Assembly: GCA_030684575.1 (NCBI GenBank)
Contig: JAUXVD010000020.1
Coordinates: 1-64,000, forward strand
DNA length: 64,000 nt
Origin: Nitrospirota bacterium
GTDB taxonomy: Bacteria; Nitrospirota; Nitrospiria; Nitrospirales; Nitrospiraceae
Direction: 5' to 3'
Position numbers and translations under genes: made by a program. This document shows, piece after piece, positions 6,423 to 25,474 of the stretch (position 1 is its first letter; each line of letters starts with the position of its first letter). The notes beneath the pieces were generated by a model. It searched no databases. It saw nothing but the letters and a program-made list of their open reading frames with translations, and had not been told where the DNA came from.

Positions 6423-7343
6423 TTACTCTCCCCTGGAGAGGGACTGCCGCATCAATCGATCCAACCTGTGATCCAACTCGGCGAAGTCCTCCAAGACCTC
6501 AATATGAGATTGCTCGAAGAGATTCCGTAACGTGAGTGCGCCATGTCCGCCGACAGCCAGGGCTGAGACAGGACCGACCTCATGCGTAAGGGCCTGGATC
6601 AGCTCTGTCGCTGTGGCATCGGACAAGGCGATGGGAAATGACAGGATCGTGAGGTCGGGCTTCACTTTCCCACAGAGGTCTGCCAGTGAGGAAACGGGCA
6701 CATTGGCTCCCAGATAGTACACTCGACAGCCGCGGACGCGACATCGATAGGCCACTGCCAACGCGGCAATGTCATGTTCTTCGCCGGGCGGGCAGGCAAC
6801 GACCAGCTTGGCCCCAAACTCAGCGACCGGAAGCTGATTCATGGCCGTGAAGATCTTTTGTTGGATTTGCTTCGTGACGTAATGTTCGATGGCCACGGTC
6901 AGCTGTCCACCGTGCCAGAGCTCTCCTACCTGTTCCTGGAGCGGAAGCAGGATTCCGTGAAGCGCTTCCTCAAATGGCACGACTGCCACTGCACCGTTCA
7001 AACGCTTTTCAAAAGTCACACGATCGAAGGGGCTCAGTGTGGACAGGAGTTCACGCAGAAGTCGGCTGAAGGTATTGTCGACGAATGATACCTGCGGCGC
7101 GCTGGCTCTGGCGCGGCTCAACAACTCTTCGCGCCCCAATTTCGACAACTCCCCTATCGAACCTCCAGCATCCAGCTGTTCTTTGAGGTATCTCAGCAGC
7201 GCAACATCCTCATCAGAATAATTGCGATACCGATTGGCCCCTCTGGTGGGTTTCAGGAGGTCAAATCGACGCTCCCACACACGAATTACATCTCTAGACA
7301 AACCAGTAAGTTTTGCAACTCTGTGAATTCTATGATTATTCAT
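6423..7343 (-). CDS. carH: CarH/LitR-type B12-dependent light-sensing repressor
   Basis: The 306-residue product has a MerR-type winged HTH (about 1-70, HRVAKLTGLSRDVIRVWERRF), a four-helix cobalamin cap (about 90-175) and a Rossmann B12-binding domain (about 178-300). The cap holds the diagnostic W-x9-EH motif (W143, E153, H154; WHGGQLTVAIEH), and H190 in PGEEHDIA is the expected lower cobalt ligand. In this family the adenosylcobalamin-bound tetramer represses in the dark, and light breaks the Co-C bond and releases DNA. It is divergent from a 25-gene plus-strand run and has matching half-sites between them, so autoregulation and control of that run are likely. Confidence 0.85.
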   Translation of the reverse strand: MNNHRIHRVAKLTGLSRDVIRVWERRFDLLKPTRGANRYRNYSDEDVALLRYLKEQLDAGGSIGELSKLGREELLSRARASAPQVSFVDNTFSRLLRELLSTLSPFDRVTFEKRLNGAVAVVPFEEALHGILLPLQEQVGELWHGGQLTVAIEHYVTKQIQQKIFTAMNQLPVAEFGAKLVVACPPGEEHDIAALAVAYRCRVRGCRVYYLGANVPVSSLADLCGKVKPDLTILSFPIALSDATATELIQALTHEVGPVSALAVGGHGALTLRNLFEQSHIEVLEDFAELDHRLDRLMRQSLSRGE

Positions 7344-7367
7344 CGTATTTACGAACTCCCATACAAA

Positions 7368-7397
7368 TCTATACCCTTACAGTCTAATGTTTGTCAA
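7368..7397 (-). promoter_or_regulatory. Predicted sigma-70 promoter of carH
   Basis: On the minus strand, TTGACA (7397-7392) and TATAGA (7373-7368) are separated by 18 bases, about 25 bases before the carH start. It overlaps the leftmost repressor half-site, consistent with self-repression. Confidence 0.55.
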
Positions 7398-7474
7398 ATA
7401 ATAACTACATTAACACTTGACACATTGGACAAATTGGTTTATACATTAGACATACATGTTGCAAACATTGAACA
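7383..7474. promoter_or_regulatory. Operator array of TnnACA half-sites for CarH
   Basis: Near-identical 10-mers recur at 7413 (ACACTTGACA), 7422 (ACATTGGACA), 7443 (ACATTAGACA) and 7465 (ACATTGAACA), with an inverted copy at 7381-7390. All direct copies fit TnnACA, the direct-repeat half-site reported for CarH DNA-binding domains. They are spaced by 9 and then by about 22 bases, and they cover both divergent promoters. Confidence 0.6.
7417..7445 (+). promoter_or_regulatory. Predicted sigma-70 promoter of the light-response run
   Basis: TTGACA (7417-7422) and TATACA (7440-7445) are separated by 17 bases, fifty bases before the first gene. Both hexamers lie inside the TnnACA array, so bound CarH would exclude RNA polymerase. 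Confidence 0.6.
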
Positions 7475-7494
7475 GTCAGCCTACGGAGGTGATT

Positions 7495-7746
7495 ATGGCA
7501 AGCATGTCGAGGGAGAGAATAGGGGCTGAACGGCCAGGAACTCAGGCCATCTCTGCTTCAGTCCAACAGGAATTGAGATGCGGCAGGTGCGGGGGACTCA
7601 TGGTGAGCGACGGCTGCATAGATTTGCTGGGCAGCAGGGGTCAGCCGGAGTTTGCTGCGATACGTTGCGTCCAATGTGGTGAGGTCATCGATCCCGTAAT
7701 CCGGCGTAACCGGCAGCTTCGACAGGACCAGCCGATTGTTGCTTAA
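7495..7746 (+). CDS. Small zinc-ribbon protein
   Basis: The start at 7495 follows GGAGGTGATT. The 83-residue product has two CxxC knuckles (RCGRCGGLMV and IRCVQCGEVIDPVI) around a short beta hairpin, typical of a single zinc ribbon. A paralogue with the same pattern lies at 11558-11926. It is the first gene behind the predicted CarH-controlled promoter. DNA-, RNA- or protein-binding is possible; function unknown. Confidence 0.75.
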   Translation: MASMSRERIGAERPGTQAISASVQQELRCGRCGGLMVSDGCIDLLGSRGQPEFAAIRCVQCGEVIDPVIRRNRQLRQDQPIVA

Positions 7747-7846: not shown

Positions 7847-8812
7847 ATGCGGAGTCAAACAGTGCGTCAGGTCGGATTAGGGGTGGTATTGATGGCGGGA
7901 GCCATCTCCATCGCGGCAGCAGCGGACATGCCGGGTAGCGACAAGGACATGGTGCTCATCCCGAAGGGGGAGTTCACCATGGGGAGCAGTCACCATTCAG
8001 ATGAGGCCAAGCACCAGGTCGTACTCGATGCCTATTTGATCGACAAGTTCGAAGCGTCGAACGCCAGGTACAAGGAGTTTATGAAGGCCAGCGGTCACCC
8101 GGCTCCGGCCTATTGGGACGATCCGCGGCTCAGCAAAGCCAATCAGCCGGTGGTCGGTGTGAGCTGGACTGACGCCAGCGCCTTCTGCAAGTGGGATGGG
8201 AAGCGGCTTCCCACGGAAGCAGAATGGGAGCGTGCGGCGAAAGGTCCGGAAGGCGATAACCATTATCCATGGGGCCACATGCTTGATCCCAAGAAAGCCA
8301 ACTATGGACAGAATGTCGGCCATACCACGCCGGTGGATTCCTACCCCGAGGGAGTGAGCGGCTACGGGGTCTACAACATGGCGGGGAACGTCTTCGAATG
8401 GGTGGAGGACTGGTATGACCAGAAATACTACAAGGACAGCATCGCGCTGAATCCGAAGGGCGCCGAGAAGGGCTACAACTTTGCCAATCAAGGCCCCGTG
8501 AAGGTGTTGCGCGGCGGCTCCTGGCTCGCGCCGGAAACCTCGCTCCATACGAGCCACCGGTTCTGGAATCAGCCTGATAATAATTCCTATGGGGTCGGAT
8601 TGGGCTTCCGTTGCGCCAAATCGGCACAGACCGTGTCTGACGAAGCCATGCAAGCAGGCCACGACGCCTTCATTCAGGCATTAGTCGCAATGGGTGCCGA
8701 GAAGAATGCCGATGCGATGGCCTCCATCGAAAAGGCCTTGGCTTCGGAGCCGGGGAACAAGGAATACCTGGCGACTCGCGATCTGATCAAAAAGAGCATG
8801 AAGAAGAAATAG
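7847..8812 (+). CDS. Exported FGE/SUMF1-fold protein, catalytic Cys absent
   Basis: The 321-residue product has a signal peptide (about 1-26), an FGE-sulfatase (SUMF1) domain (about 33-255) and a C-terminal helical, TPR-like tail (about 262-321). Fold hallmarks are visible: VLIPKGEFTMGS, RLPTEAEWERAAKG, YNMAGNVFEWVEDWY and RGGSW...GFRCA. True formylglycine-generating enzymes have a CHxxYC active site after RGGS. Here it reads LAPETSLHTSH, so it cannot oxidise sulfatase cysteines by that chemistry. AAGGAGG precedes the ATG. It is a paralogue of the next gene. A role in binding or in another oxidase reaction is open. Confidence 0.85.
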   Translation: MRSQTVRQVGLGVVLMAGAISIAAAADMPGSDKDMVLIPKGEFTMGSSHHSDEAKHQVVLDAYLIDKFEASNARYKEFMKASGHPAPAYWDDPRLSKANQPVVGVSWTDASAFCKWDGKRLPTEAEWERAAKGPEGDNHYPWGHMLDPKKANYGQNVGHTTPVDSYPEGVSGYGVYNMAGNVFEWVEDWYDQKYYKDSIALNPKGAEKGYNFANQGPVKVLRGGSWLAPETSLHTSHRFWNQPDNNSYGVGLGFRCAKSAQTVSDEAMQAGHDAFIQALVAMGAEKNADAMASIEKALASEPGNKEYLATRDLIKKSMKKK

Positions 8813-8824
8813 TTGAAGAACTCA

Positions 8825-8857
8825 GGGGAGGGGGACCGCATTGCCGCCCCCCTCCCC
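8825..8857 (+). terminator. GC-rich hairpin between the two FGE-like genes
   Basis: GGGGAGGGGG (8825-8834) faces a C-rich complement ending near 8857 and forms a stable stem. There is no clear T-tract, so it may attenuate or stabilise RNA rather than fully terminate. Confidence 0.45.
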
Positions 8858-8885
8858 CGACCCTCGTCGTGACAGGAGGTCTGAC

Positions 8886-9944
8886 ATGAATCGATCTAGA
8901 GCATTACTGGCGACGGTCCTGGTATCGGGCGTAACGATGCTGGCTGGACCAAGCTATGCCGAAGAATCCCTCATCCCCAAGGACATGGTCTATATCGGAC
9001 AAGGGCCATCGGTGATGGGAATCGACAAGCAGGCGCCTGTGGGCTCAGGCAAACAGCCCACAGCCTATGACAAGAGAATGAAGGGTCCCCAGTCCGCTGA
9101 GGCATTTCAGGACGAAGGTCCGGCCCACATGGTGTTCTTGGATTCATACCTCATGGATACCTACGAAGTCTCCAACAAGGACTATGGCGAATTCGTCAAG
9201 ACGAAAGGCCATCCGGCTCCGGCCTACTGGGACGATCCTCGCTTGAATAAGCCGGGGCAGCCAGTGGTCGGCGTAAATTGGGACGACGCGAAATCGTTCT
9301 GTGCCTATCGCGGGAAGCGGCTTCCAACGGAAGCGGAATGGGAAAAGGCCGCTCGTGGCCCCAAGGCCAGCCTCTATCCCTGGGGCAATGACTTCGATCC
9401 GGCCAAAGTCAACTATGGGAAAAATCACGACGCGACTATGCCGGTGGATTCCTATCCTGAAGGTGTCAGTTATTATGGCGTCTACAACTTGGCGGGCAAT
9501 GTGTTCGAGTGGGTCTCGGACTGGTACGACCCGCGTTACTATGACCGGCTGGAAACGATGGTCAATCCAGCCGGTCCGGCAAAGGCCGTGTGGATCGGTG
9601 GGACCGGGACCTATGTAGATCGGCTCACAGTCGGTGAAAAGCGCGTCATTCGTGGCGGATCGTGGATCGCGCCCGAAGGGACCGTCAGAGCGACGCACCG
9701 GTTCTGGAATCACCCACTCAATAACAGCTATGGCGTGGGTCTCGGCTTCCGCTGTGCCAAGAGCGCTCCACCGGAAATCGAACAGCAGATCAGGGACAGC
9801 TACATCGCGGCGTTGGTGGACATGGGACGAGAACGGTTTACGGAGGCGACGCAGGCGGTGGCCAAGGGGTTGGCCATCGATCCCAAAAATCTCGAACTGC
9901 TGGAGCTTCGATTGCTGATTGAACAGTCGATGAAGCGGTCGTGA
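8886..9944 (+). CDS. Second exported FGE/SUMF1-fold protein, catalytic Cys absent
   Basis: The start is taken at ATG 8886 after ACAGGAGGTCTGAC, not the ATG at 8841. The 352-residue product has a signal peptide (ending near SYAEES), a SUMF1 domain with RLPTEAEWEKAARG and YNLAGNVFEWVSDWY, and RGGSWIAPEGTVRATHRFW where the two active-site cysteines should be. Its tail again looks like one TPR hairpin (AAL...AKGLAIDPKNLELLEL). Identity with the previous gene indicates tandem duplication. It has an extra N-terminal loop of about 30 residues before the FLDSYLMD strand. Confidence 0.85.
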   Translation: MNRSRALLATVLVSGVTMLAGPSYAEESLIPKDMVYIGQGPSVMGIDKQAPVGSGKQPTAYDKRMKGPQSAEAFQDEGPAHMVFLDSYLMDTYEVSNKDYGEFVKTKGHPAPAYWDDPRLNKPGQPVVGVNWDDAKSFCAYRGKRLPTEAEWEKAARGPKASLYPWGNDFDPAKVNYGKNHDATMPVDSYPEGVSYYGVYNLAGNVFEWVSDWYDPRYYDRLETMVNPAGPAKAVWIGGTGTYVDRLTVGEKRVIRGGSWIAPEGTVRATHRFWNHPLNNSYGVGLGFRCAKSAPPEIEQQIRDSYIAALVDMGRERFTEATQAVAKGLAIDPKNLELLELRLLIEQSMKRS

Positions 9945-9997
9945 GGAAATATTGCGACGGTTTTTGCTCATGGTTTGATCGTGACGGAGGGGCAGCT

Positions 9998-10366
9998 ATG
10001 GCACAGGACAAGATTCTCCTTTCAGGAATTGTACTCATCGCACTACTCGGGACCTCCCCCCTACAGGCAGATCCCATCGATCCTGCCCGGCATCCATACC
10101 CGGAGAATGCACAGGCGGTGCATAAGGCCGAGCATGATGTGGACCAAGCCTGGGAGGTGTACCACCGTGCGGCCTTAGGAGGCACGGTGGCCTCCCCTGC
10201 GTTACAGGCTGACATCGAAGAACACCTGCATGAAGCCAGGACCCTGATACCCCAGGCACGCGAGGCAGCCGAGCGGGGAGATCGGCAACAGGTGGAGCAG
10301 CTCGTACGCCAAGTGAAAATCCATACCACCAAGGCCATCGAGGGGAGCAAGGAGCAGAAGAAATGA
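9998..10366 (+). CDS. Small exported helical protein
   Basis: ATG 9998 follows GGAGGGGCAGCT; the longer frame from 9941 lacks support. The product has 122 residues with a signal peptide (cleavage near PLQADP) and a helical body of heptad-like segments (EEHLHEARTLIPQAREAAERGDR...), similar in style to small metal-binding or DUF4398-type periplasmic proteins. It lies between two FGE-like genes and overlaps the next start by ATGA, so the products probably work together. No function assigned. Confidence 0.7.
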   Translation: MAQDKILLSGIVLIALLGTSPLQADPIDPARHPYPENAQAVHKAEHDVDQAWEVYHRAALGGTVASPALQADIEEHLHEARTLIPQAREAAERGDRQQVEQLVRQVKIHTTKAIEGSKEQKK

Positions 10367-11202
10367 CACAAGGTCTGAGGAGAAGAGAAACCGGCTGGAG
10401 AAGTATTGTGGCAATGATGGCCCTCGCCTATGCCGTTGTACCTGTCGTGGCAGCTGCGCCGGCGGCCAAGGAGCTCGACCAGGTCTCCATGGTGACGATT
10501 CCGGCTGGCGCATTTCTGATGGGGAATCCGGAAGGCAAAGGCCGGGCAGATGAATGGCCGCAGCGATCGGTGTACCTCGACGAGTTTGCGATCGATCAGG
10601 TCGAAGTGACCAATGAACGGTATCTGGCGTTCGTCGCCACCACGGGCCATCGAAGCCCTCCGAACCCCTATGGCACCGGCCCGCTCTCATCCGTGAAGGG
10701 TATCGAACAACTTCCGGTCGTGCAGGCCACCTGGTACGACGCTAAGTCCTATTGTAGTTGGACCAAGAAACGGCTCCCGACAGAAGCGGAATGGGAGAAG
10801 GCCGCTCGCGGCACCGATGGCCGGCTGTTTCCCTGGGGCAATGAACCAGGGACATCGAAGCGGGCGAACTTCGACCGTGAGTGGGAGGATGAGCACACCT
10901 TGCATCCGGTCGGGTCCTTGCCAGGCGGCGACTCCCCCTACGGCGTGAAAGACATGTCCGGCAATGCTCGCGAGTGGGTGCAAGATTGGTATGACCCTGA
11001 GTATTACCAGCATGCGCCGGATCGAAATCCTCAGGGTCCTGACAAAAAGGGTGTCGTGCGATCGATTCGCGGCGGATCCTGGCATAGCCCGATCTCGGAC
11101 ATTACGACGACAGCTCGCGGGCGCGGCGGATTCGCGCTACAGACTCACGGAACGGGCTTTCGCTGTGTCCGTAGTCTCGAAACCCAGACCCAGCAGCGGT
11201 AA
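10363..11202 (+). CDS. Third exported FGE/SUMF1-fold protein
   Basis: The 279-residue product has an N-terminal signal or membrane segment (about 14-32) and a SUMF1 domain (about 42-270) with MVTIPAGAFLMGN, RLPTEAEWEKAARG, MSGNAREWVQDWYDP and GTGFRCV. After RGGSW the sequence reads HSPISDITTTARGR, again with no catalytic cysteine pair. It lacks the TPR-like tail of the first two. It overlaps the preceding small gene (ATGA), so the pair is translationally coupled. Confidence 0.85.
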   Translation: MTQGLRRRETGWRSIVAMMALAYAVVPVVAAAPAAKELDQVSMVTIPAGAFLMGNPEGKGRADEWPQRSVYLDEFAIDQVEVTNERYLAFVATTGHRSPPNPYGTGPLSSVKGIEQLPVVQATWYDAKSYCSWTKKRLPTEAEWEKAARGTDGRLFPWGNEPGTSKRANFDREWEDEHTLHPVGSLPGGDSPYGVKDMSGNAREWVQDWYDPEYYQHAPDRNPQGPDKKGVVRSIRGGSWHSPISDITTTARGRGGFALQTHGTGFRCVRSLETQTQQR

Positions 11203-11557: not shown

Positions 11558-11926
11558 TTGTGCTCCCCAGCGGGGGTTCCAGTGGCATCGAGCGGGAGAC
11601 CGAACAATCCTCTACCCTTCGCCCCGCTTTCCGGCGACCGAACCTGTATGCGCTGTGGGGGGCTGCTGGTCACGGAATATTATCTGGACCTTCAGGACGA
11701 TACCGGTCAAATCGGCGTCACGGGATTGCGTTGCACCAGTTGTGGTGAGGTCGTCGATCCGGTCATTCTCAGGAACCGATTGAACCAAACGCCTGATCTG
11801 TTGTACGGCACGAAGCAAAGAAAATACGCACTCCGGGTCGATCGGGGAATGTCGGATGGGCCACATCGAAGCGGCCATAAGAATGACAGGCAGCTAGGCG
11901 ACTACCGAATTGTCGGTACCGCGTAA
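11558..11926 (+). CDS. Small zinc-ribbon protein, paralogue of 7495-7746
   Basis: The 122-residue frame opens with TTG; GTG at 11582 behind GGGGG is an alternative. Two knuckles (TCMRCGGLLV and LRCTSCGEVVDPVI) match the first zinc-ribbon protein, including the shared GEVxDPVIxRNR segment after the second pair. The C-terminal basic extension is longer and poorly conserved. It sits at the boundary between the FGE-like block and the photolyase/lipid block. Confidence 0.65.
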   Translation: MCSPAGVPVASSGRPNNPLPFAPLSGDRTCMRCGGLLVTEYYLDLQDDTGQIGVTGLRCTSCGEVVDPVILRNRLNQTPDLLYGTKQRKYALRVDRGMSDGPHRSGHKNDRQLGDYRIVGTA

Positions 11927-11937
11927 GGAGATGAGCC

Positions 11938-12855
11938 ATGCACATTGTCGTCGCAGGCGGAACGGGCTTCATCGGTCGGCCCTTATGTGCCTCGCTCGCT
12001 CAGGCGGGGCATCGGGTCACGCTCCTCACGAGAAGGAAGGAAGAGGCGCAACGGTTGTTCAGCTCCGCTGTGACGGCCGTCGAGTGGAATGGCACTGAGA
12101 CGGGGGCCTGGGAGCAATCTCTCGAAGGGGCCGATGCTGTCATCAATCTCGCCGGTGCACCCATTGCTGATGCACGCTGGACCGATGCCCGCAAGCGCCT
12201 CCTCACTCTAAGCCGGGTCCTCACCACTCGCCTGCTAGTAGTAGCCATATCCCGCCGGTCCTCCAAACCCCGTACGCTGATTAACGCCTCTGGTATCGGC
12301 TACTACGGAGCCTGCGACGATCATATTCTGGATGAGGGTGCTGCGCGCGGCCAAGGCTTTCTGGCCGATCTATGTCTTACCTGGGAATCGGAGGCGCTGC
12401 GAGCTGCGGAGTTCGGGGTGCGAGTCGTCATGTTGCGGACCGGAATGGTGCTCGAACAAGACGGCGGGGCCTTGCCGAAGATGTTGTTACCGTTCCGTCT
12501 CTTTGCGGGTGGCCCGATCCTGCCGGGCACGCAATGGGTATCCTGGATCCATCGGCGCGATCACATCGGTTTGATCCAATGGCTGCTCGCAACACCAAGC
12601 ATCTCCGGTCCCGTCAATGCGGTGGCGCCAGAGGCAGTCAGGATGAACCGGTTCTGCGAGGTGCTCGGACAAACACTCCATCGGCCTTCCTGGCTTCCCG
12701 TGCCGGGCTTCGCGTTACACCTGGCATTAGGTGAGCTGGGGACACTCATGACCACGGGCCAACGGGTCCATCCGGCGAAGGGCCTCTCAGGGGGCTACGT
12801 CTTTCAGTATCCGACGTTGGAACCGGCGCTACGAGCGATTTTCGCTAAGGCCTAG
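11938..12855 (+). CDS. TIGR01777-family NAD(P)-dependent epimerase/SDR
   Basis: The 305-residue product is an extended short-chain dehydrogenase. The N-terminal nucleotide motif is GGTGFIG (7-13); DAVINLAGAPI is at about 68-78 and ASGIGYYGACDD contains the YYG signature; DUF1731 forms the C-terminus (about 250-300). The family (YfcH, plant SulA-like) has no settled substrate. AAGGAG precedes the start. Related reductases recur in light- and singlet-oxygen-induced clusters with photolyase and Cfa genes, as here. Confidence 0.85.
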   Translation: MHIVVAGGTGFIGRPLCASLAQAGHRVTLLTRRKEEAQRLFSSAVTAVEWNGTETGAWEQSLEGADAVINLAGAPIADARWTDARKRLLTLSRVLTTRLLVVAISRRSSKPRTLINASGIGYYGACDDHILDEGAARGQGFLADLCLTWESEALRAAEFGVRVVMLRTGMVLEQDGGALPKMLLPFRLFAGGPILPGTQWVSWIHRRDHIGLIQWLLATPSISGPVNAVAPEAVRMNRFCEVLGQTLHRPSWLPVPGFALHLALGELGTLMTTGQRVHPAKGLSGGYVFQYPTLEPALRAIFAKA

Positions 12856-12866
12856 AGGAGCTGGAG

Positions 12867-13337
12867 ATGCTGTCGCTGATTGAGTATTTGCATGCGGTCG
12901 CCATTGCCGTTCTGGTCGGGAAGGTCGTGCTGTTGTCTTTTGTCGTGGCGCCCATTCTTGCGAAGAGCCTGGAGCGGGATCCGTTCGGGACAGTCGTCCG
13001 CCGTCTATTTCCTGCCTACTACGCCTTAGGGATGGGAACCGCCATGTTCGGGTTGGTCTTGTTGAGTGGGCTGGCCATGTTCAAGGGTATGAGTCCCTCA
13101 CTGCAGTCGGCGGGCGGGATCTGGCTCATTATTTTGGCGGCCGAAGCCTATTGTCGATCGCCGATGACACCGCGGAGTAATGCCATGAGGGATCTGCTGA
13201 AGAAGCAGGAACAATCTGGCGCCGTCGATCCGAATCTTCAGGCCGCATGGAAACGGCTCCATCAGCGATCTATTTATCTGAACTCCCTCGTGTTAGTGGC
13301 AGGACTCGTCCTGCTTGGACTCTCACATCACTGGTAG
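12867..13337 (+). CDS. DUF4149/TMEM205-like membrane protein
   Basis: The 156-residue product has about four transmembrane helices: at 5-30, a second pair near 50-100, and one at the C-terminus (LVLVAGLVLLGL). The FPAYYALG motif after the first helix is characteristic of the family. Function is unknown. GAGGAGCTGGAG precedes the ATG. Confidence 0.7.
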   Translation: MLSLIEYLHAVAIAVLVGKVVLLSFVVAPILAKSLERDPFGTVVRRLFPAYYALGMGTAMFGLVLLSGLAMFKGMSPSLQSAGGIWLIILAAEAYCRSPMTPRSNAMRDLLKKQEQSGAVDPNLQAAWKRLHQRSIYLNSLVLVAGLVLLGLSHHW

Positions 13338-13356
13338 CTCACAAGGAGGAACGGAC

Positions 13357-13809
13357 ATGAGAATCAGAGGCATCCCCGTCGCGATAGGATTGATGTTGGG
13401 CCTTCTGTTGGCAGGTGGAATTGAAGCGGCTGACCAGCCAATGGGCCAGGCTCCGTATGGGCACGGAAGCGACGCCACCCTCCCGAACGGCGTGATCGGC
13501 GTCTCGCTGCATGTCGGGGCGGAACGGATCGGTGACCCGGCCTCGTTATATGTGGCCCATGTACATCCGGAGGGTCCCGCCCAGCAATCAGGTCTCAAGC
13601 ATGGAGATGAAGTGCTCACGGTGAACGGTGCGGCAGTCACAGGGAAGACCTATGAGCAGGTGGTGAAGATGGTGCGCGGAGAGGCTGGGACAGCAGTGAA
13701 ATTGGGGGTAAAAGGAGAAGGCGGAATGCGCGAAATCTCGATCACGCGCATCGCCAGCGAAAAACTCTATAAAGGCGAGATGGGATCCCATGGTGGGCCT
13801 GCCCGATAG
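13357..13809 (+). CDS. Exported PDZ-domain protein
   Basis: ATG 13357 follows ACAAGGAGGAACGGAC. The 150-residue product has a signal peptide (cleavage near GGIEAAD) and one PDZ domain (about 45-130), with GVSLHV, a GLKHGDEVLTVNG hairpin and VVKMVRGEAGT. No protease domain is present, so it probably acts as a peptide-binding adaptor in the periplasm. Confidence 0.8.
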   Translation: MRIRGIPVAIGLMLGLLLAGGIEAADQPMGQAPYGHGSDATLPNGVIGVSLHVGAERIGDPASLYVAHVHPEGPAQQSGLKHGDEVLTVNGAAVTGKTYEQVVKMVRGEAGTAVKLGVKGEGGMREISITRIASEKLYKGEMGSHGGPAR

Positions 13810-14382: not shown

Positions 14383-14805
14383 ATGCGCGCGAAGCGGGCC
14401 GGACTGGACATCAAAATACTGGGTGGCCTCTTTCTGATCTTCGGCACGGTCGATCTGATCGTCATCGCCCTGTTTCCTTCCTACGCCTTCAAGTTGTTCG
14501 GCATGGCTGTGACCGGCCCCTCGTCCTATCTTGTGAAGCTCCACGCCCCTGCCGTGCACCTGCTCATAGGCTACGGGTTCCTCTGGCTCAGACCCTGGGC
14601 CTGGGGCCTGAGCATGGCCTATGCAGGATTCGGTCTGGTGAGCGAGACCATGAATCAATTGTCGTTCGGCTTTCATCCCGTCCGCTCGGGCTTCATGGCC
14701 ACGACAATGCTGTTTCTGGCCTATCTGATCAAAAGACGGACGCTCTTCACCGATGAGTACACCATGATGGAGCAGCACAGTCCGGCATCGGAGGAGACGC
14801 ACTGA
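14383..14805 (+). CDS. Four-helix integral membrane protein
   Basis: The 140-residue product has four hydrophobic segments (about 8-30, 45-65, 70-90, 100-118) and an acidic C-terminal tail. It has no recognised domain. Its stop overlaps the photolyase start by one base, so it is in the same transcript and likely accessory to that block. Confidence 0.65.
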   Translation: MRAKRAGLDIKILGGLFLIFGTVDLIVIALFPSYAFKLFGMAVTGPSSYLVKLHAPAVHLLIGYGFLWLRPWAWGLSMAYAGFGLVSETMNQLSFGFHPVRSGFMATTMLFLAYLIKRRTLFTDEYTMMEQHSPASEETH

Positions 14806-16253
14806 TGAGAGGAGTGGTCTGGCTCAGACGGGATCTGCGGCTGCGAGATCAACCGGCGCTCACTGCGGCCTGCACTGAATGCGATGAGGTCATTCCGCTC
14901 TTTGTATTCGACGATCCCCTCCTGCGTTCCGGGCAATTCGGCTCATCTTGCGTGACGTTCATGGTCTCCTGTCTGGTAGAGCTGGCCGGGACCCTGGACG
15001 AGCGAGGCCTTTCTCTACAATGGCGGCGGGGGGATCAGATCGAAGAGGTGCTCCGTTTCGTCGACGGCGTCAAGGCCGATGCGATCTACTGGAATCGCGA
15101 TTATGAACCGGCGTCGATCCTGCGAGATCGGAAAGTTCAGCAGGATCTTATGGCTCGTGGAGTGGTCGTTCGCACGTTCAAGGACCATGTGGTCTTCGAG
15201 GCCGAAGAGATCAGAGGGTCGACGGGAGATCCATTGCAGCGATACAGTGCCTATCGCGCCCGATGGTGGACCAAGTGGCATGCCGCACCCCCGCCGCTCC
15301 TACCCTCCCCTGCCAGATTGCGGAAACAGCGAACCGGCACCTCGTCACCCGGCATGGCGCTGCCGACAGTGGAAGAGCTCGGCTATCAGAACGTTCCCTT
15401 ATGGATCAAGCCGGGAGAGAAGGAGGCACAGCGGAGGCTCCGCTGGTTTCTCGATGGTCCTGTCCATCGCTATGTTGAAGGACGGAATCTTCCTGCGATC
15501 GACGGAACATCAAAATTATCTCCACAGTTCCGGTTCGGGACGCTCTCGGTACGGACCGCCGTGCATGCAGCCTTAGGCACACTCGCGACAGGCGGCCCCG
15601 TCTCGCGTCGCGACCTGCTCACCTGGATCGATGAATTGATCTGGCGGGAATTTTTCCAGCAAATCTTGTCCTCGTTTCCACAAGTGGCCTCCGGCCCGTT
15701 CCGAAGCAAGAACGGATTGCCCAGGCCCCGTCCAGCGGGAGCGGAGCGGAATCGTCTCTATGCTGCCTGGTGCGAAGGACGAACCGGTTATCCGCTGGTG
15801 GATGCAGGCATGCGGCAGCTGAACCAGACCGGCTGGATGCATAATCGCGTGCGGATGGTCGTGGCGTCGTTTCTCATCAAGGATCTTTGCATCGATTGGC
15901 AAAGTGGGGAGCGTTATTTCATGCAGCAACTCATCGATGCCGACCTGGCGGCCAATAACGGCAATTGGCAATGGGCCTCCGCGACAGGGACGGATTCCAT
16001 GCCGGGGTACAGGATTTTCAATCCCCTACTACAGAGCAAGAAGTTCGATCCGGACGGTGCCTACGTCCGACAGTATCTGCCGGAGCTTGCCGCCGTACCG
16101 ACTAACCGGATTCATGCGCCACATCTGATGACTCTGGACGAACAGGCTCTAGCCGGGTGCCGTATTGGCAGAGACTATCCTTCGCCCATCGTGGATCACC
16201 GGCAGGCCCGCGATGAATATTTAGCCCTTGGCAAACAACTGGTGACGAAATGA
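14805..16253 (+). CDS. phrB: Deoxyribodipyrimidine photolyase (CPD class I)
   Basis: The 482-residue product repairs UV-induced cyclobutane dimers using FADH- and blue light. The N-terminal antenna domain (about 1-130, VVWLRRDLRLRDQPAL) and C-terminal FAD domain (about 200-475) are complete. FAD/DNA-binding motifs are visible: DELIWREFFQQIL, GRTGYPLVDAGMRQLNQTGWMHNRVRM, and NNGNWQWASATGTDSMPGYRIFNP. Length matches the family. It overlaps the upstream gene by one base and the RudS gene by ATGA. Placement behind a B12 light-sensing repressor fits light induction. Confidence 0.93.
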   Translation: MRGVVWLRRDLRLRDQPALTAACTECDEVIPLFVFDDPLLRSGQFGSSCVTFMVSCLVELAGTLDERGLSLQWRRGDQIEEVLRFVDGVKADAIYWNRDYEPASILRDRKVQQDLMARGVVVRTFKDHVVFEAEEIRGSTGDPLQRYSAYRARWWTKWHAAPPPLLPSPARLRKQRTGTSSPGMALPTVEELGYQNVPLWIKPGEKEAQRRLRWFLDGPVHRYVEGRNLPAIDGTSKLSPQFRFGTLSVRTAVHAALGTLATGGPVSRRDLLTWIDELIWREFFQQILSSFPQVASGPFRSKNGLPRPRPAGAERNRLYAAWCEGRTGYPLVDAGMRQLNQTGWMHNRVRMVVASFLIKDLCIDWQSGERYFMQQLIDADLAANNGNWQWASATGTDSMPGYRIFNPLLQSKKFDPDGAYVRQYLPELAAVPTNRIHAPHLMTLDEQALAGCRIGRDYPSPIVDHRQARDEYLALGKQLVTK

Positions 16254-17203
16254 CGACCCTGGCGCTCCGTCTCGGGATCAGCCGTTGTCTCCTGGGGGAC
16301 GAAGTCCGGTTCGACGGGGGCCATAAGCGGGACAGTTTTCTGACCGATGTGTTGGCTCAATACGTGGAGTGGGTCCCGGTCTGCCCTGAGGTAGAAGCCG
16401 GTCTCGGCGCGCCCAGGGAAGCGATGCGGCTGATTGGTGATCCTCATCATCCACGGCTTGTGACAATCAAGAGTGGGACAGATCACACAGTCGCGGTCGA
16501 AAAGATGACCGAGAATCGTATCAAGGAACTCGAGGAGTTGGATCTCTCAGGGTATGTCTTTAAAAAGGGTTCGCCGAGCTGCGGGATGGAGCGGGTTCGT
16601 ATCTACAATGAGCAGGGGATGCCCAACCGGAATGGAGTCGGGCTGTTCGCCCGGGCTTTTATCGAGCAGTTTCCGCTGATTCCGGTCGAGGAGGAAGGGC
16701 GGCTTTGTGATGCGCCGCTCAGAGAGAATTTTATCGAACGGATCTTCTGTTACCGCCGCTGGCAGGATCTCGTACAGAGCGGAGTCACGAGGCAGAATCT
16801 GGTGCAGTTCCACACGATCCACAAATATTTGCTGTTGGCCCATAGCCCGCAGCAGTACCAAGTCCTCGGGCGGCTCGTCGGTCAAGCGGAGCGGTACCGT
16901 CCCAAGGAACTTGCAACCCGCTATGGCGAACTGTTCATGAACGCCTTGGCCATGAAGGCAACGGTGCGCAAGCATGTGAATGTCCTCCAACATATCCTGG
17001 GCTACTTCAAGGACCGATTGGGGTCTCAGGAAAAAGCTGAACTGTTGGTCGTGATCGGCGATTATCATCGTGGCCTCACGCCCCTGGTGGTTCCCCTGAC
17101 CCTGATCAAGCACTACGTCCGGATCTTTGACGTCAGCTACATTCGCGATCAGGTCTATCTCAATCCGCATCCAAAGGAGCTCATGTTGCGTAACCATGTG
17201 TAG
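16250..17203 (+). CDS. rudS: RudS-type tRNA 4-thiouridine desulfidase (DUF523-DUF1722)
   Basis: The 317-residue product is a two-domain protein. The TudS/DUF523 domain (about 1-150) has the three Fe-S cysteines C13 (SRCLLG), C45 (PVCPEVEAGLG) and C111 (GSPSCG). DUF1722 (about 185-310, FHTIHKYLLLAHSPQQYQVLGR) follows. Characterised fusions of this type (RudS) remove sulfur from s4U in tRNA using a [4Fe-4S] cluster and lessen near-UV growth arrest. The ATGA overlap with photolyase supports a joint UV/light role. Older annotations call it YbgA-like. Confidence 0.85.
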   Translation: MTTLALRLGISRCLLGDEVRFDGGHKRDSFLTDVLAQYVEWVPVCPEVEAGLGAPREAMRLIGDPHHPRLVTIKSGTDHTVAVEKMTENRIKELEELDLSGYVFKKGSPSCGMERVRIYNEQGMPNRNGVGLFARAFIEQFPLIPVEEEGRLCDAPLRENFIERIFCYRRWQDLVQSGVTRQNLVQFHTIHKYLLLAHSPQQYQVLGRLVGQAERYRPKELATRYGELFMNALAMKATVRKHVNVLQHILGYFKDRLGSQEKAELLVVIGDYHRGLTPLVVPLTLIKHYVRIFDVSYIRDQVYLNPHPKELMLRNHV

Positions 17204-17215
17204 AGAGGAGCCACC

Positions 17216-17587
17216 ATGCCACATGTCGTCATAGAAGAAGCCGGAGATCTGCAGGGCGTTTACCAGGCCTTCACGCCGATCATTCAGCGGGCGGGGACCG
17301 ATATTCTGAAAGTGCAGGAATGCTACCTGGGACGAAGTGGCAAAGAAGCACTCCTGGAGTCGATCGCGATCGAGCAGGGTGTTGCGTGCAATTTTTTCGT
17401 ACAGCTCAAATTGCACGAGAACGCTATCACGGTTCGGCTCTTGCCTGCCACAGATCCTGAGAAGACCCCCGCGGTGAAGAAGGTGATGGCCCTGGTGGCG
17501 GGATTCATCCGGACAGTATACCCGGGGAGTCGTTACGGGAAGACCAACCTACAAGACTACCTCGAGGCTACAACTGATTCACGGTGA
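17216..17587 (+). CDS. Conserved-looking hypothetical protein (123 aa)
   Basis: A soluble alpha/beta protein without signal peptide or membrane segment. It contains a hydrophobic core strand (ITVRLLPATD) and a C-terminal amphipathic segment with Tyr-Gly-Lys (SRYGKTNLQDYL). I recognise no domain. A GAGAGGAG site precedes the ATG, and the gene lies 12 bases after rudS in the same run. Confidence 0.65.
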   Translation: MPHVVIEEAGDLQGVYQAFTPIIQRAGTDILKVQECYLGRSGKEALLESIAIEQGVACNFFVQLKLHENAITVRLLPATDPEKTPAVKKVMALVAGFIRTVYPGSRYGKTNLQDYLEATTDSR

Positions 17588-17626
17588 AAGAAAACGGATG
17601 CGAGTTTACACAAGAGGAGCAACAAG

Positions 17627-18136
17627 ATGGCGGCAACGATGCGAGGAGTGATTTTAGTTGGTCATGGCGGCATTCCCAAGGGCTGCCCGCAGGAATTCGT
17701 GACGAAACTGAAACGGCTGGAGGGTCAGCGGCGTGCCGCAAAGATACCGCCTTCGGCAGAAGAAATCGAATTGGATACCAAGATCCGCCAGATGCCGAGG
17801 ACCCCGGAGACGGACCCCTATCAATCGGGGCTTGAAGCGGTGGCGGCTCAGTTGAAAGCCAACCTGGGAGAGGTGTTATTCGCCGTGGCCTACAATGAGT
17901 TCTGTGCGCCAACCTTGGAAGCATCGGTGGAGGAGTTGGTCCAGAAGGGCGCGACCCACATTACCGTGACCACGACGATGTTCACGCCTGGCGGATCACA
18001 CTCAGAGGTGGAAATTCCTGAAATCCTCGACCACTTGAGGCCGCTGTATCCGGATGTCGAACTGCGTTACGCCTGGCCGTTCGATTTGAAACTTGTCGCG
18101 AACATGCTGGCAGAGCAGGTGAAGCGCTTTTCCTGA
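17627..18136 (+). CDS. CbiX/sirohydrochlorin chelatase-like protein
   Basis: The 169-residue product has the CbiX/SirB N-terminal signature (GVILVGHGG, His at about 13) and a second strand with THITVTTTMFTPGGSHSEVEIPE, providing the second metal-site histidines. Chelatases of this fold insert Co2+ or Fe2+ or Ni2+ into sirohydrochlorin-type tetrapyrroles. An insertion (about 30-65) makes it longer than minimal CbiX. Near a B12-dependent regulator a link to cobalamin supply is tempting, but the substrate is unproven. Confidence 0.7.
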   Translation: MAATMRGVILVGHGGIPKGCPQEFVTKLKRLEGQRRAAKIPPSAEEIELDTKIRQMPRTPETDPYQSGLEAVAAQLKANLGEVLFAVAYNEFCAPTLEASVEELVQKGATHITVTTTMFTPGGSHSEVEIPEILDHLRPLYPDVELRYAWPFDLKLVANMLAEQVKRFS

Positions 18137-18304
18137 CAACATCTCACGGCGGACCCAACCGCGCGTGTATCGCATGAGGATAGAAGGATATGGGGAGCGA
18201 CGACACGGTGATCCGACGACTAGCCGTTCCGCTATCAGTGGCTCTTGACGATGGAACCTGTTTCACAGTGCAGGGAACATGGGACCATGTTGGAGGTTAA
18301 GCCC

Positions 18305-19369
18305 ATGCAACATCTCACGCCTCTTGTATTAAACCTGGCCGAACAGGGGCTCTTTCCGGACGTGGCAACTCGATGGGGGATTCGGCAATTGCTTAAGCAG
18401 CGCCTCCGGGACATCCGGTCAGGTGACGCTCGAGCAGCAGCGCGGCAGGAAATGAGATTTATCGAGGAAATGCGTCGTGCGCCCATCGCAGTGGTACCGG
18501 AGAAAGCCAATGATCAGCACTACGAGGTCCCGGCTGAGTTCTTCCGGCAGGTCCTCGGGCCTCACCTGAAATACAGCAGCGCGTTCTGGCCCGCCAACGC
18601 GACGACCCTAGCCCAAGCAGAAGCCGCCGGCCTGCGTGAGTCCTGCCTGCATGCGGGCCTGATGAACGGGCAGACGGTTCTTGAGCTCGGATGCGGTTGG
18701 GGGTCCCTTACGTTGTGGATGGCGGAGCATTACCCCGACAGCCGTATCACGGCGGTCTCCAATTCCCGCTCGCAGCGGGCTTACATCGAGGCCCAGGCCA
18801 GAGAACGTGGCCTGCAGAACCGGGTTCGGGTATTGACCTGCGACATGAATACATTCGAGATCGACCCCGGGCAATTCGATCGGGTGGTGTCGGTAGAAAT
18901 GTTCGAACACATGCGTAACTGGCCTGACCTATTTGCGCGCGTCCGACGATGGCTGAGACCGGGCGGCCAGTTCTTCATGCACGTGTTCGTGCATCGCGCT
19001 ACTTCGTACTTGTTCGAAGACCGAGGGCCTGCCGACTGGATGAGTCGTCAATTTTTCACGGGCGGGATGATGCCCAGCGCTGGCCTGCCGCTGGCCTGTC
19101 AGGACCAACTCGCCTGTGTGGCCCGCTGGCGGTGGGACGGCACGCACTATGAGAAAACGGCCAACGCCTGGCTGACCAATATGGATGCCGCCCGCGAGAC
19201 ACTCTGGCCCGTGATCGAGCGTATCTACGGCAAGGCCCACGCGCGAGCCTGGTGGGGGCGGTGGCGTATCTTCTTTATGGCCTGTGCCGAGCTGTTCGGC
19301 TATGAGGAGGGCCGACAATGGGGGGTCAATCACTATCTCTTCGAAAAACCAGCGGCGAGTGCTTCATGA
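18305..19369 (+). CDS. Cfa-family SAM-dependent methyltransferase (first)
   Basis: ATG 18305 follows GGAGG at eight bases; upstream starts lack support. The 354-residue product is a COG2230 methyltransferase. SAM motif I is VLELGCGWGSLTLWMA, motif II surroundings are FDRVVSVEMFEHM, and SQRAYIEAQARERGL is typical. It lacks the N-terminal domain of true cyclopropane synthases and resembles the plant coclaurine-N-methyltransferase-like branch found in light/singlet-oxygen clusters. It may methylate unsaturated acyl chains. It overlaps the following DUF2878 gene (ATGA). Confidence 0.85.
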   Translation: MQHLTPLVLNLAEQGLFPDVATRWGIRQLLKQRLRDIRSGDARAAARQEMRFIEEMRRAPIAVVPEKANDQHYEVPAEFFRQVLGPHLKYSSAFWPANATTLAQAEAAGLRESCLHAGLMNGQTVLELGCGWGSLTLWMAEHYPDSRITAVSNSRSQRAYIEAQARERGLQNRVRVLTCDMNTFEIDPGQFDRVVSVEMFEHMRNWPDLFARVRRWLRPGGQFFMHVFVHRATSYLFEDRGPADWMSRQFFTGGMMPSAGLPLACQDQLACVARWRWDGTHYEKTANAWLTNMDAARETLWPVIERIYGKAHARAWWGRWRIFFMACAELFGYEEGRQWGVNHYLFEKPAASAS

Positions 19370-19917
19370 AGATGAGCACCACGATGATCCTGAGCAACTT
19401 CGTACTCTTTCAAATCGGCTGGTTTGCGTGTGTGTGGAGCGCCGCGGCACACAAGCCCTGGATCGGCGTGCTGGTGACGACGGGAGTGGTGGGCGCGCAT
19501 GTGCTCCGCGCTGCCCTGCCAATGGCGGAGCTCAAGCTGGTATTCCTGGCACTCGCCTTGGGACTCGTCTTCGACAGCCTGTTGGTATGGGAGGGCTGGC
19601 TTCAATATTCCTCGGGAATCATGATCCAACACATTGCCCCCTATTGGATCGTGGCGTTGTGGGGGCTCTTCGCAACCCTCTTGAATGTTTCGTTGCGTTG
19701 GATGAGGGGGCGCTGGGTCATCGCAGTTGTGTTTGGAGCTGCCGGGGGTCCTGCCGCCTACTATGGTGGCCTCCGCCTAGGCGCGCTGGAATTCGGCAAT
19801 ATGCCCGCGGGTCTGTTAGCTCTGGCCATTGGCTGGGCGGTGCTGACGCCGCTGCTGCTGGCATTGTCGGCTCGTTTTGACGGCTATGCCGGTCTGCTGG
19901 AGAAGAAGACATCATGA
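19366..19917 (+). CDS. DUF2878 membrane protein
   Basis: Start set at ATG 19366, which overlaps the methyltransferase stop as ATGA. The 183-residue product has five or six transmembrane helices. The motif NFVLFQIGWFACVWSAA, with HxPWIG after it, is characteristic of DUF2878. The family co-occurs with Cfa-like enzymes and DUF1295 in light-inducible clusters; activity unknown. A broken second copy lies at 25475-25969. Confidence 0.8.
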   Translation: MKMSTTMILSNFVLFQIGWFACVWSAAAHKPWIGVLVTTGVVGAHVLRAALPMAELKLVFLALALGLVFDSLLVWEGWLQYSSGIMIQHIAPYWIVALWGLFATLLNVSLRWMRGRWVIAVVFGAAGGPAAYYGGLRLGALEFGNMPAGLLALAIGWAVLTPLLLALSARFDGYAGLLEKKTS

Positions 19918-20723
19918 GTCTATCGCTCTATGTCTTGGGACTAGTTTCAACGCTGGGTCTGGCGACCCTGACATGGGTGGTCAGCGTCCTCAAGCGCGAT
20001 GTGAGCATCGTGGACGGCGTATGGGCCTTGATGCTCCTCGCCGCCGCGACGGTGTACGCCACCGGCGCGGAGCCCTATACGGGACGGACGACGCTCATCC
20101 TGACGCTGGTTGTGCTGTGGGCCGTGCGCCTGTCAGCCCATATCATCCATCGTAACTGGGGTGAGCCAGAGGACCGGCGTTATCGAGACATCCGCCAGAA
20201 ATACGAACCCAATTTCGCATTGAAGAGTCTTGGCCTCATCTTCTGGTTTCAGGCGGGACTGGCATCGATCATCTCCATGCCCCTCTGGCCGGCTCTTACC
20301 GTTCCGGTCGAAGCGGGATCCATCGATATACTGGCGACGACGGTATGGACCGTCGGCATGATTTTCGAAGGTATCGGAGATTGGCAGCTGTCACGGTTCA
20401 AAGCCGACCCGGCGAACCACGGCAAGGTGATGGACCGCGGACTCTGGCGCTACACACGGCATCCCAACTACTTCGGCGAGTGCCTGATCTGGTGGGGCTT
20501 CTTCCTCTTTGCGCTGCCCGCCGGGGCCTGGTGGACGGTCGCGGGGCCCCTGCTCCTCACATATATGCTCTTGAAATTCTCAGGCGTGACCTTGATGGAG
20601 CAGACCATCGTCGAGCGGCGACCGGCGTATCGAGCCTACATCGCAAGGACCAATGCCTTCATTCCCGGTCCGCCGAAACAGGGTATGCAGGCCTCCATTC
20701 CAGGAAATAGACGTCATGATTAG
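19914..20723 (+). CDS. DUF1295 membrane protein (steroid 5-alpha-reductase-like)
   Basis: The 269-residue product has about seven transmembrane helices. The C-terminal signature (GLWRYTRHPNYFGECLIWWGFF) defines the DUF1295/ICMT-like fold that binds NADPH or SAM near the membrane. It overlaps both neighbours (ATGA upstream, eight bases downstream). Homologues accompany COG2907/DUF1365/Cfa genes in the singlet-oxygen response of Rhodobacter; a role in reducing or modifying unsaturated acyl chains is inferred. Confidence 0.85.
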   Translation: MSLSLYVLGLVSTLGLATLTWVVSVLKRDVSIVDGVWALMLLAAATVYATGAEPYTGRTTLILTLVVLWAVRLSAHIIHRNWGEPEDRRYRDIRQKYEPNFALKSLGLIFWFQAGLASIISMPLWPALTVPVEAGSIDILATTVWTVGMIFEGIGDWQLSRFKADPANHGKVMDRGLWRYTRHPNYFGECLIWWGFFLFALPAGAWWTVAGPLLLTYMLLKFSGVTLMEQTIVERRPAYRAYIARTNAFIPGPPKQGMQASIPGNRRHD

Positions 20724-21387
20724 CGCGTGTTCCGCGACCAGCGGGTTTCGTATCGCGGTGGCCTTTCTCGGATTCCTGACGTGCCTTGGAAGCGCATCCC
20801 AACAGGCTTGGAGCGCCGCCTCACAGACCTATGACTTCAAGGTCTTCCTTGGCAAGGATGAAATCGGACACCAGCGCTTTAACATCTCTTCGGAAGGCGA
20901 CCGGACCCAGGTCCAGGTAGACGCGCAGTTCACGGTCAAATTCCTGTACATCACGGTCTACACCTATCGGCATACCAACGTCGAAACATGGAAGGGGACG
21001 TGCCTGCGCGAAATTCACGCGGAGACGGATGATAACGGCGACTCTTTCTTCGTGAACGGAATTGTTCGGAACGGACAGTTGCAGGTGCAGACACAGGCCG
21101 GGAACTGGATTGGCGAGGGATGTATCAAGACCTTTGCCTACTGGAACCCTGAGTGGATTAAGGGCGAGCGATTGCTGAATTCGCAGACCGGCGAACATCA
21201 GCCAGTATCGATTCTTGCGGTGGGTGAAGAGACGATCCCCGTGCAGGGAGTCCCGACGCGAGCCATCCACCGCCGGATCGTTACGGATAAGTTTGCGGTC
21301 GATCTCTGGTACACCTTGAACGGCAGATGGGTCGCGCTGCAATCCACCACGAAAAAGGGCGACACCCTTCGCTATACGCTCCAGTGA
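20716..21387 (+). CDS. Exported DUF6134-family protein
   Basis: Start set at ATG 20716, inside the end of the DUF1295 gene. The 223-residue product has a signal peptide (through about residue 35) and a beta-rich body (YDFKVFLGKDEIGHQRFNI), the pattern of the DUF6134 family. Such proteins are predicted periplasmic lipid- or envelope-associated beta proteins of unknown role. It lies directly before the lipocalin gene. Confidence 0.7.
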   Translation: MISACSATSGFRIAVAFLGFLTCLGSASQQAWSAASQTYDFKVFLGKDEIGHQRFNISSEGDRTQVQVDAQFTVKFLYITVYTYRHTNVETWKGTCLREIHAETDDNGDSFFVNGIVRNGQLQVQTQAGNWIGEGCIKTFAYWNPEWIKGERLLNSQTGEHQPVSILAVGEETIPVQGVPTRAIHRRIVTDKFAVDLWYTLNGRWVALQSTTKKGDTLRYTLQ

Positions 21388-21394
21388 GGACCCC

Positions 21395-21925
21395 ATGTCA
21401 TCTATGAAGCCATCATTCTTCTTGCCCATTATGCTGCTCGTACTCGCAGCCTGCGGCAGCCCACCACCCATTCACACCGCGACAACCGTGGACCTGGAGC
21501 GGTTCATGGGGGACTGGTATGTCATCGCCAATATTCCAACCTTTATTGAGACGAATGCCTACAACGCCATGGAGTCCTATCGCATGGACCAGGATGGCAC
21601 AGTGGCCACTACCTTTAGCTTCCGCGAGGGCGGCTTTGAGAGGGAGCGCAAAACCTATCATCCGACCGGCTATATCATCGACAGGCAATCGAATGCTGTC
21701 TGGGGCATGCAATTCATCTGGCCGATCAAGTCCGACTATCGCATTATCTACGTAAACGATGCCTACGACCAGACCATCATTGGCAGGATACAACGCGATT
21801 ACGTCTGGCTGATGGCACGAACACCGCAGATTTCCGAAGCTGATTACCAGCGGTTCCTGCAGCTCATCACCAAGGAAGGCTACGATGTCTCCAAAGTCCG
21901 GAGGGTGCCACAACAGTGGAACTAG
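21395..21925 (+). CDS. blc: Lipocalin lipoprotein (Blc-type)
   Basis: The 176-residue product has a lipoprotein signal (LLVLAACGS) and a bacterial lipocalin barrel: DLERFMGDWYVIANIPTF is the first conserved motif and YVWLMARTP the third. Blc proteins bind lysophospholipids or fatty acids at the outer membrane. GAGG precedes the ATG. It belongs to the lipid-remodelling block. Confidence 0.88.
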   Translation: MSSMKPSFFLPIMLLVLAACGSPPPIHTATTVDLERFMGDWYVIANIPTFIETNAYNAMESYRMDQDGTVATTFSFREGGFERERKTYHPTGYIIDRQSNAVWGMQFIWPIKSDYRIIYVNDAYDQTIIGRIQRDYVWLMARTPQISEADYQRFLQLITKEGYDVSKVRRVPQQWN

Positions 21926-22043
21926 TGGGCCATGGGGGAAATATGGGACACGGTGATCGCTCTGGGTTAACAGACCAGCCCTGAGTGGGAGCCGGGTCGT
22001 CGCTCATCGCCAGTACGAGGGAATCAGCCCGGGTGTCGCTGCG

Positions 22044-22109
22044 ATGACGACCTCTTTTGCAATCAATCTTGGTCCGAACCCGATCAACGAGGCGCTGAAG
22101 ACCGTATGA
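22044..22109 (+). CDS. Possible 21-residue coupling ORF before the COG2907 gene
   Basis: The frame encodes [21 protein letters not shown] and its TGA overlaps the next start as ATGA. The COG2907 gene has no visible Shine-Dalgarno, so translation could be coupled through this frame. The same frame stays open back to about 21957, so it might equally be the tail of a lost gene. Confidence 0.3.
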   Translation: MTTSFAINLGPNPINEALKTV

Positions 22110-23368
22110 AAATCGCGATTGTCGGCACAGGCATCTCGGGGATGGTCGCAGCCTATCTACTTCACCGAGATCATGAGATCACCGTCTTCGAGGCCGCCGG
22201 GTATGTCGGAGGACACACGAATACGATTGATGTCACATTGAATGGCCAGACCTATGCCATCGACACGGGATTCATCGTCTTCAACGACTGGACCTACCCG
22301 AATTTCATTGCGCTGCTGAAGAAGCTCGGCGTCGAATCGCAGGCGAGCGACATGAGTTTCAGTGTCAAGTGCGAGCGGACCGGCCTGGAGTACAACGGCG
22401 CGTCACTGAATACACTCTTCGCCCAACGACGAAATCTTCTCCAGCCGTCGTTCTATCGCATGATCCGCGACATCCTCCGCTTCAATCGTGAATCGTTGGA
22501 ACTCCTCCGCCAGCCGGAGCCCGGCCCGTCGCTCAAGGCGTATCTTGAGGCGAACCGCTACTCAAGCGAGTTCATCGACCACTATATTGTGCCCATGGGA
22601 GCGGCAATCTGGTCCGCCGACCATGCCACAATGTCGGACTTTCCTGCCCGCTACCTGGTGCAGTTCTTCAAAAACCACGGCATGTTATCCGTCGATCACC
22701 GTCCGACATGGCGCGTGGTCCAGGGGGGATCGCGGCGTTACGCTGAAACATTGGTTGCGTCGTTTCGGGATCGCATCCATCTGAAGTCGCCGGTCGAATC
22801 GATCAGCCGCTATCCGGACTTCGTGGAGGTCCGTACCCGTCTCGCCGGTCGAAACGAGCGGACGCTCCGGTTCGACCATGTGATGATAGGCACGCACAGC
22901 AATCAGGCGCTCGCGATGCTGGCCGACCCTTCACCGAGTGAACAAGACATCCTGGGCGCTATCCGCTACCAAGAGAATGAAGCAGTGCTGCATACCGATG
23001 CGTCGCTCCTGCCTCGCAGGAAACTGGCCTGGGCTGCCTGGAACTATCATCTCCTGCCCACTCAACCGGATCGTGCGGTGGTGACCTATCACATGAATCG
23101 GCTCCAGCGTCTGTCGGCCTCTCACGAATTCTGCGTAACCTTGAACCATACGCGGGCCATCGATCCGGCCAAGATCCTGCGCCGTATCACCTATCACCAT
23201 CCGATCTATTCGCCGGAAGCGGTTGCGGCGCAGAAGCGGCATGGCGCGATCAGCGGGATCAATAGAACATCCTACTGCGGCGCGTACTGGGGCTTTGGAT
23301 TCCACGAGGATGGGGTGAAGAGCGCGTTGGCAGCCTGCAAGCCATTCGGCAAGGATCTGTCGTCATGA
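22106..23368 (+). CDS. FAD-dependent oxidoreductase, COG2907 family
   Basis: The 420-residue product is an amine-oxidase-type flavoprotein. The Rossmann dinucleotide motif is at 4-32 ([26 protein letters not shown]) and GGHTNTI is the conserved segment after it; a substrate domain follows. Related flavoproteins work with Cfa-like methyltransferases to desaturate acyl chains in Rhodobacter furan-fatty-acid synthesis (UfaD/UfaM); equivalence here is inference. It overlaps DUF1365 by ATGA. Confidence 0.87.
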
Positions 23369-25457: not shown

Positions 25458-25474
25458 GCCGAATCTAGAACGTC

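Follow-up and report, generated by a model that had tools for sequence, protein, structure and literature searches.

The window, meaning the whole 64,000-nucleotide stretch of Nitrospirota DNA analysed here, carries a carH gene on the complementary strand (6423-7343), which encodes a 306-residue protein with a MerR DNA-binding domain, a B12-binding helical bundle, and a Rossmann B12-binding domain. An intergenic region (7344-7494) separates carH from a rightward gene run. The source organism encodes the beta subunit of nitrite oxidoreductase, an NxrB-like protein with nitrite oxidoreductase subunit B as its top PDB match (5e-170); a first-pass annotation had taken it for a nitrite oxidiser. 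A corrinoid adenosyltransferase gene is also found in the genome. A search for the ammonia-oxidation gene family PF02461 gave no match, though its control set matched nowhere either. To the left of carH, a weakly phage-integrase-like protein (125-808) and an AAA_25 protein (1762-2868) are possibly the remnant of a mobile element.

The run, entirely on the forward strand, opens with a small CxxC...CxxC protein (7495-7746) with a conserved start codon and no Pfam family. Three FGE/SUMF1-fold proteins (PF03781; 7847-8812, 8886-9944, and 10363-11202) and a 141-residue protein (9941-10366) form a block (7847-11202) that the family retains downstream of the operator. A second CxxC...CxxC protein without a Pfam family (11558-11926) follows, and an SDR epimerase (DUF1731), a DUF4149 protein, and a PDZ protein also lie within 11558-13809. 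The DNA photolyase (14805-16253) is the only FAD_binding_7 match, and the sole photolyase found, in the genome. It is followed by a RudS-type tRNA 4-thiouridine desulfidase (DUF523/DUF1722), a 123-residue protein, and CbiX (16250-18136), and by a lipid module (18245-25969) composed of two CMAS methyltransferases, two DUF2878 proteins, DUF1295, DUF6134, a lipocalin, an FAD amine oxidase, and DUF1365. The gene order is largely conserved in the family, running from the CxxC protein through two FGE-fold proteins, the 141-residue protein, the third FGE-fold protein, the second CxxC protein, SDR, DUF4149, and PDZ to two small proteins, photolyase, RudS, and CbiX, while the lipid module is present in some relatives and missing from others. 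Inside the run, a promoter scan gave matches at chance level and terminator-like matches numbered 20 against 13.6 expected. The FGE-fold proteins are apparently secreted; the first, mostly 82-90% identical among relatives, lacks both active-site cysteines of the aligned FGE (RGGSWLAPETS vs RGGSYLCHDSYC), and by eye the same stretch is also without cysteine in the second and third.

Two divergent promoters can be read in the intergenic region. The forward promoter has a -35 box TTGACA (7417-7422) and, 17 bp away, a -10 box TATACA (7440-7445). On the reverse strand, the carH promoter has a -35 box TTGACA (7392-7397) and, at a spacing of 18 bp, a -10 box read from the sequence as TATAGA (7368-7373), in which the forward-strand TA at 7372-7373 is invariant in 33 relatives. 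An automated promoter scan misses both, because its rule accepts only a -10 box with T as the sixth base, which excludes TATACA and TATAGA.

Three repeat modules overlap these promoters. In module F1, the forward -35 box lies within the repeat ACACTTGACA (7413-7422, TnnACA), and the TnnACA-bearing 11-mer ACATTGGACAA (7422-7432; decamer ACATTGGACA, 7422-7431), starting 9 bp after it, occupies the promoter spacer with TGGACA, the GGACA of which is almost invariant in relatives. Module F2 is an exact 11-bp DR-dr-DR ladder (DR, full repeat; dr, pseudorepeat) that begins in the -10 box and extends across the expected start site. Its first unit (ACATTAGACAT, 7443-7453; decamer ACATTAGACA, 7443-7452) overlaps the -10 box, its second is a degenerate pseudorepeat (ACATGTTGCAA, 7454-7464) that matches TnnACA perfectly in 6 of 48 relatives, and its third (ACATTGAACAG, 7465-7475; decamer ACATTGAACA, 7465-7474) again carries TnnACA. 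Module R, on the reverse strand (7401-7380), is a DR-dr pair covering the carH -35 box. This box lies inside R1 (TTATTTGACAA, 7391-7401; decamer TTATTTGACA, 7401-7392), which fits nnnnTnnACAn and includes a block conserved in relatives (7391-7398), and R2 (ACATTAGACTG, 7380-7390; decamer ACATTAGACT, 7390-7381) lies exactly 11 bp from R1 and has TnnACA without a mismatch in 30 of 45 relatives. The TGGACA of F1 precedes the ladder by 21 bp here, or by 22 bp in some of the relatives, and together with the ladder it looks like an array of five steps that slips by one base. The at least four ACAYTNGACA-like direct repeats that the first-pass annotation had described, all obeying TnnACA, are exact at 7413, 7422, 7443, and 7465 and overlap both forward boxes as it stated, but with spacings of 9, 21, and 22 bp they are neither a uniform repeat nor, as a whole, one 11-bp ladder; its single inverted copy over the carH promoter proves to be two units in 11-bp register.

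CarH operators consist of tandem 11-bp 5'-nnnnTnnACAn-3' repeats, often with DR and dr mixed, that overlap the -35 or -10 box (PMC9304148). Such tandem repeats are found at 7443/7454/7465 and at 7401/7390, and they overlap -35 and -10 boxes that are read from the sequence and conserved, the start site being predicted. In the case of Thermus thermophilus CarH (TtCarH), the operator likewise consists of tandem 11-bp nnnnTnnACAn repeats over promoter elements, but the present locus differs in having extra off-register units at the -35 box, a second array on the opposite strand, and non-carotenoid targets. Myxobacterial CarH operators, with five repeats of mixed DR/dr (PMC9304148), share the long array of full and pseudorepeats with the -35 box inside one repeat and, in some species, the divergent promoters (PMC9304148); the present operator differs from them by slipping one base between spacer unit and ladder (21 bp in most relatives, 22 bp in some) and by having a conserved reverse array over the carH promoter. 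The Pseudomonas class II LitR proteins PplR and PmlR (PMC9758184) resemble the present system in their targets, which include photolyase, SDR, an FAD oxidoreductase, and the lipid enzyme UfaM. However, class II LitR has a LOV partner and TGTACA-N12-TGTACA sites (PMC9758184). By eye, 7344-7494 does not match the class II operator T(G/A)TACA-N12-TGTA(C/T)A and contains no TGTACA.

The CarH protein contains the Pfam domains MerR_1, B12-binding_2, and B12-binding. It thus keeps the full B12-binding region of the class I LitR/CarH architecture, whereas class II LitR has only the four-helix-bundle part. TtCarH is its top PDB sequence match (1e-24), and the predicted fold (mean pLDDT 85.2) has the TtCarH structure 5c8d as its top Foldseek match (7e-17); with TtCarH (PDB 5c8d/5c8e) it shares the MerR plus B12-binding architecture, the fold, and the W/E/H/H B12 residues. 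All four motifs of the CarH light signature, GxxW, EH, GxxH, and GxxxP (PMC11796333), are present (G140-W143, E153-H154, G187-H190, and G212-P216). The W-x9-EH motif (W143...E153-H154) and the cobalt-ligand H190 are intact, as had been claimed; W143, E153, H154, H190, and P216 are invariant in 17 aligned relatives, and G187 is kept in at least 90%. In contrast, three TtCarH residues with a reported importance for contacts within and between its dimers (PMC10442372) are not kept: E189, N214, and V173 stand at the aligned positions of Arg176, Asp201, and Gly160. The Arg176-Asp201 pair of the TtCarH head-to-tail dimer is therefore replaced, and the glycine of the B12 motif ExHxxG is replaced by Ala193 (ExHxxA). 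The Arg-Asp pair was treated as a feature of TtCarH rather than a defining one, because the oligomeric state varies within the CarH family (PMC9304148); given these replacements, the TtCarH dark oligomer cannot be assumed.

The same replacements speak for a reading in which CarH binds the operator without acting as a light switch, being either independent of B12 like myxobacterial CarA or a sensor of B12 supply or redox state; CarA and class II LitR do function without B12 (PMC9304148, PMC9758184). This reading is unlikely, since the four light-signature motifs, including the cobalt-ligand histidine, are present with nearly all their residues invariant in the 17 relatives, and a photolyase and RudS lie in the run. 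RudS often sits in light-responsive operons (PMC11417400), and in Pseudomonas photolyase, SDR, FAD oxidase, and UfaM are linked to LitR (PMC9758184); the photolyase and RudS of the run correspond to known LitR-controlled genes. That the protein is a B12 photoreceptor, as proposed earlier, is suggested by its motifs and fold; the tetramer-interface residues of Thermus CarH are not kept.

Conservation of the operator was followed in an alignment of the upstream regions of the window and its relatives, 33 sequences in all, in which the blocks 7382-7398, 7412-7431, 7440-7455, and 7462-7473 are kept and the remainder drifts. In 48 anchored operators, TnnACA follows ladder unit 1 at +11 in 6, at +22 in 27, and elsewhere three times; two relatives show a perfect three-step ladder. 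Furthermore, a sequence-only profile built from the forward half of the operator gave 138 matches, spread over 110 of the 175 genomes of the family. A divergent carH is found 48-126 bp away from about 124 of these (125 with one contig-edge case, G041:C20, entered by hand), and 114 of the 117 full-length carH genes have the operator. The family contains two carH types, approximately 53% identical, with the same operator at both, side by side in several genomes. Two or three copies of carH occur at some loci, among them G077:C53, G053:C1, and G065:C15, and every copy there has a separate operator.

In four relatives, L084-L087, only a remnant of the type 1 carH is left, with stops or an internal deletion (L084, 16400-17060; L085, 17950-18620; L086, 3950-4470; L087, 3700-4095), and the forward array is retained in front of it. 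This survival beside pseudogenes could mean that the repeats serve another regulator or a sigma factor and that carH merely adjoins them. Such an arrangement is very improbable: in each of the four genomes a second, intact carH lies in the same stretch and has the same operator, nearly all operators adjoin carH, and the register obeys the CarH rule. The reverse array at the decayed carH of L087 no longer has its TTGACA; L084 and L085 carry a few additional bases between the -10 box and the ladder, with the -35/-10 spacing still at 17 bp.

The significance of the repeats was assessed with 2000 dinucleotide shuffles of 7344-7494. Four ACAYTNGACA-like decamers (at least 8 of 9 positions matched) occur against a shuffle mean of 0.14, and the best three-step 11-bp ladder scores 23 of 27 against 14.6 ± 1.2; no shuffle reached either value. 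The bare TnnACA count of 6 is weak evidence, being reached by 3.2% of shuffles. Across the window, the one-mismatch decamer is not enriched (12 vs 10.8 expected), but 5 of the 12 lie inside the 94-bp stretch of the array. Chance repeats, or conservation owed to promoter boxes alone, can practically be dismissed: although both TTGACA boxes and TATACA fit TnnACA by default, no shuffle equals the array and 7426-7431, 7446-7454, and 7462-7473, all outside the boxes, are strongly conserved.

The register, the family-wide conservation, the near-exclusive co-location with carH, and the light signature of the protein together argue that 7380-7475 is very probably a CarH-type operator that keeps the two divergent promoters repressed in darkness, largely as the first-pass annotation proposed. 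We infer that CarH binds the DNA, that it does so in dependence on B12 and light, that regulation has the sign given here, and that the run is transcribed as one unit. In the dark, CarH loaded with adenosylcobalamin would bind the direct repeats of 11 bp found on the two strands, blocking RNA polymerase at the forward promoter (-35 box, spacer, -10 box, and start site) and at the carH promoter, with repression and autoregulation as the expected outcome. Blue or green light would then break the Co-C bond and release CarH from the DNA, and the forward run would be switched on as a photoprotection response comprising secreted FGE-fold proteins, SDR, photolyase, tRNA s4U desulfidase, and membrane-lipid enzymes.

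With the forward-half profile (E up to 5) and with a two-unit pattern, the genome of the window yields a single operator copy, so that control would extend to one long divergent gene run; weak or differently built sites could escape these searches. The region of ladder unit 3 is the sole two-unit match, and a triple perfect TnnACA ladder is absent from this genome by pattern search owing to the degenerate middle unit. On this single copy, a scattered regulon was rejected, and the regulon of the earlier proposal reduces to a single run. More tentatively, and with doubt outweighing confidence, the family may possess a common light response in which two CarH types act through one composite operator, lack the Arg-Asp dimer contact, assemble differently in the dark (for example, as two units that span the gap between the -35 and start-site arrays), and govern a programme of envelope repair, not of carotenoid synthesis, that centres on secreted FGE-fold proteins lacking catalytic cysteines.

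Blue-green light inhibits nitrite oxidation and the growth of Nitrospira (PMC9797979). In the literature searched, light sensing in the Nitrospira group is not described, and the sole paper found on Nitrospira and CarH concerns Leptospirillum and cites CarH from other bacteria only. The type of switch is already known; the novelty lies in its occurrence across the family of nitrite-oxidising Nitrospiraceae and in a target other than carotenoid genes. With the operator in 110 of 175 family genomes, light sensing in these nitrifiers becomes directly testable and its target genes are indicated; in more than 100 related genomes the array is kept ahead of a run that contains the one light-powered DNA-repair enzyme recognised in the cell. 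A Nitrospira-type carH (88%) with the operator also occurs in a bin labelled Pyrinomonadaceae (JAMQPH010000073.1), reflecting either mis-binning or transfer.
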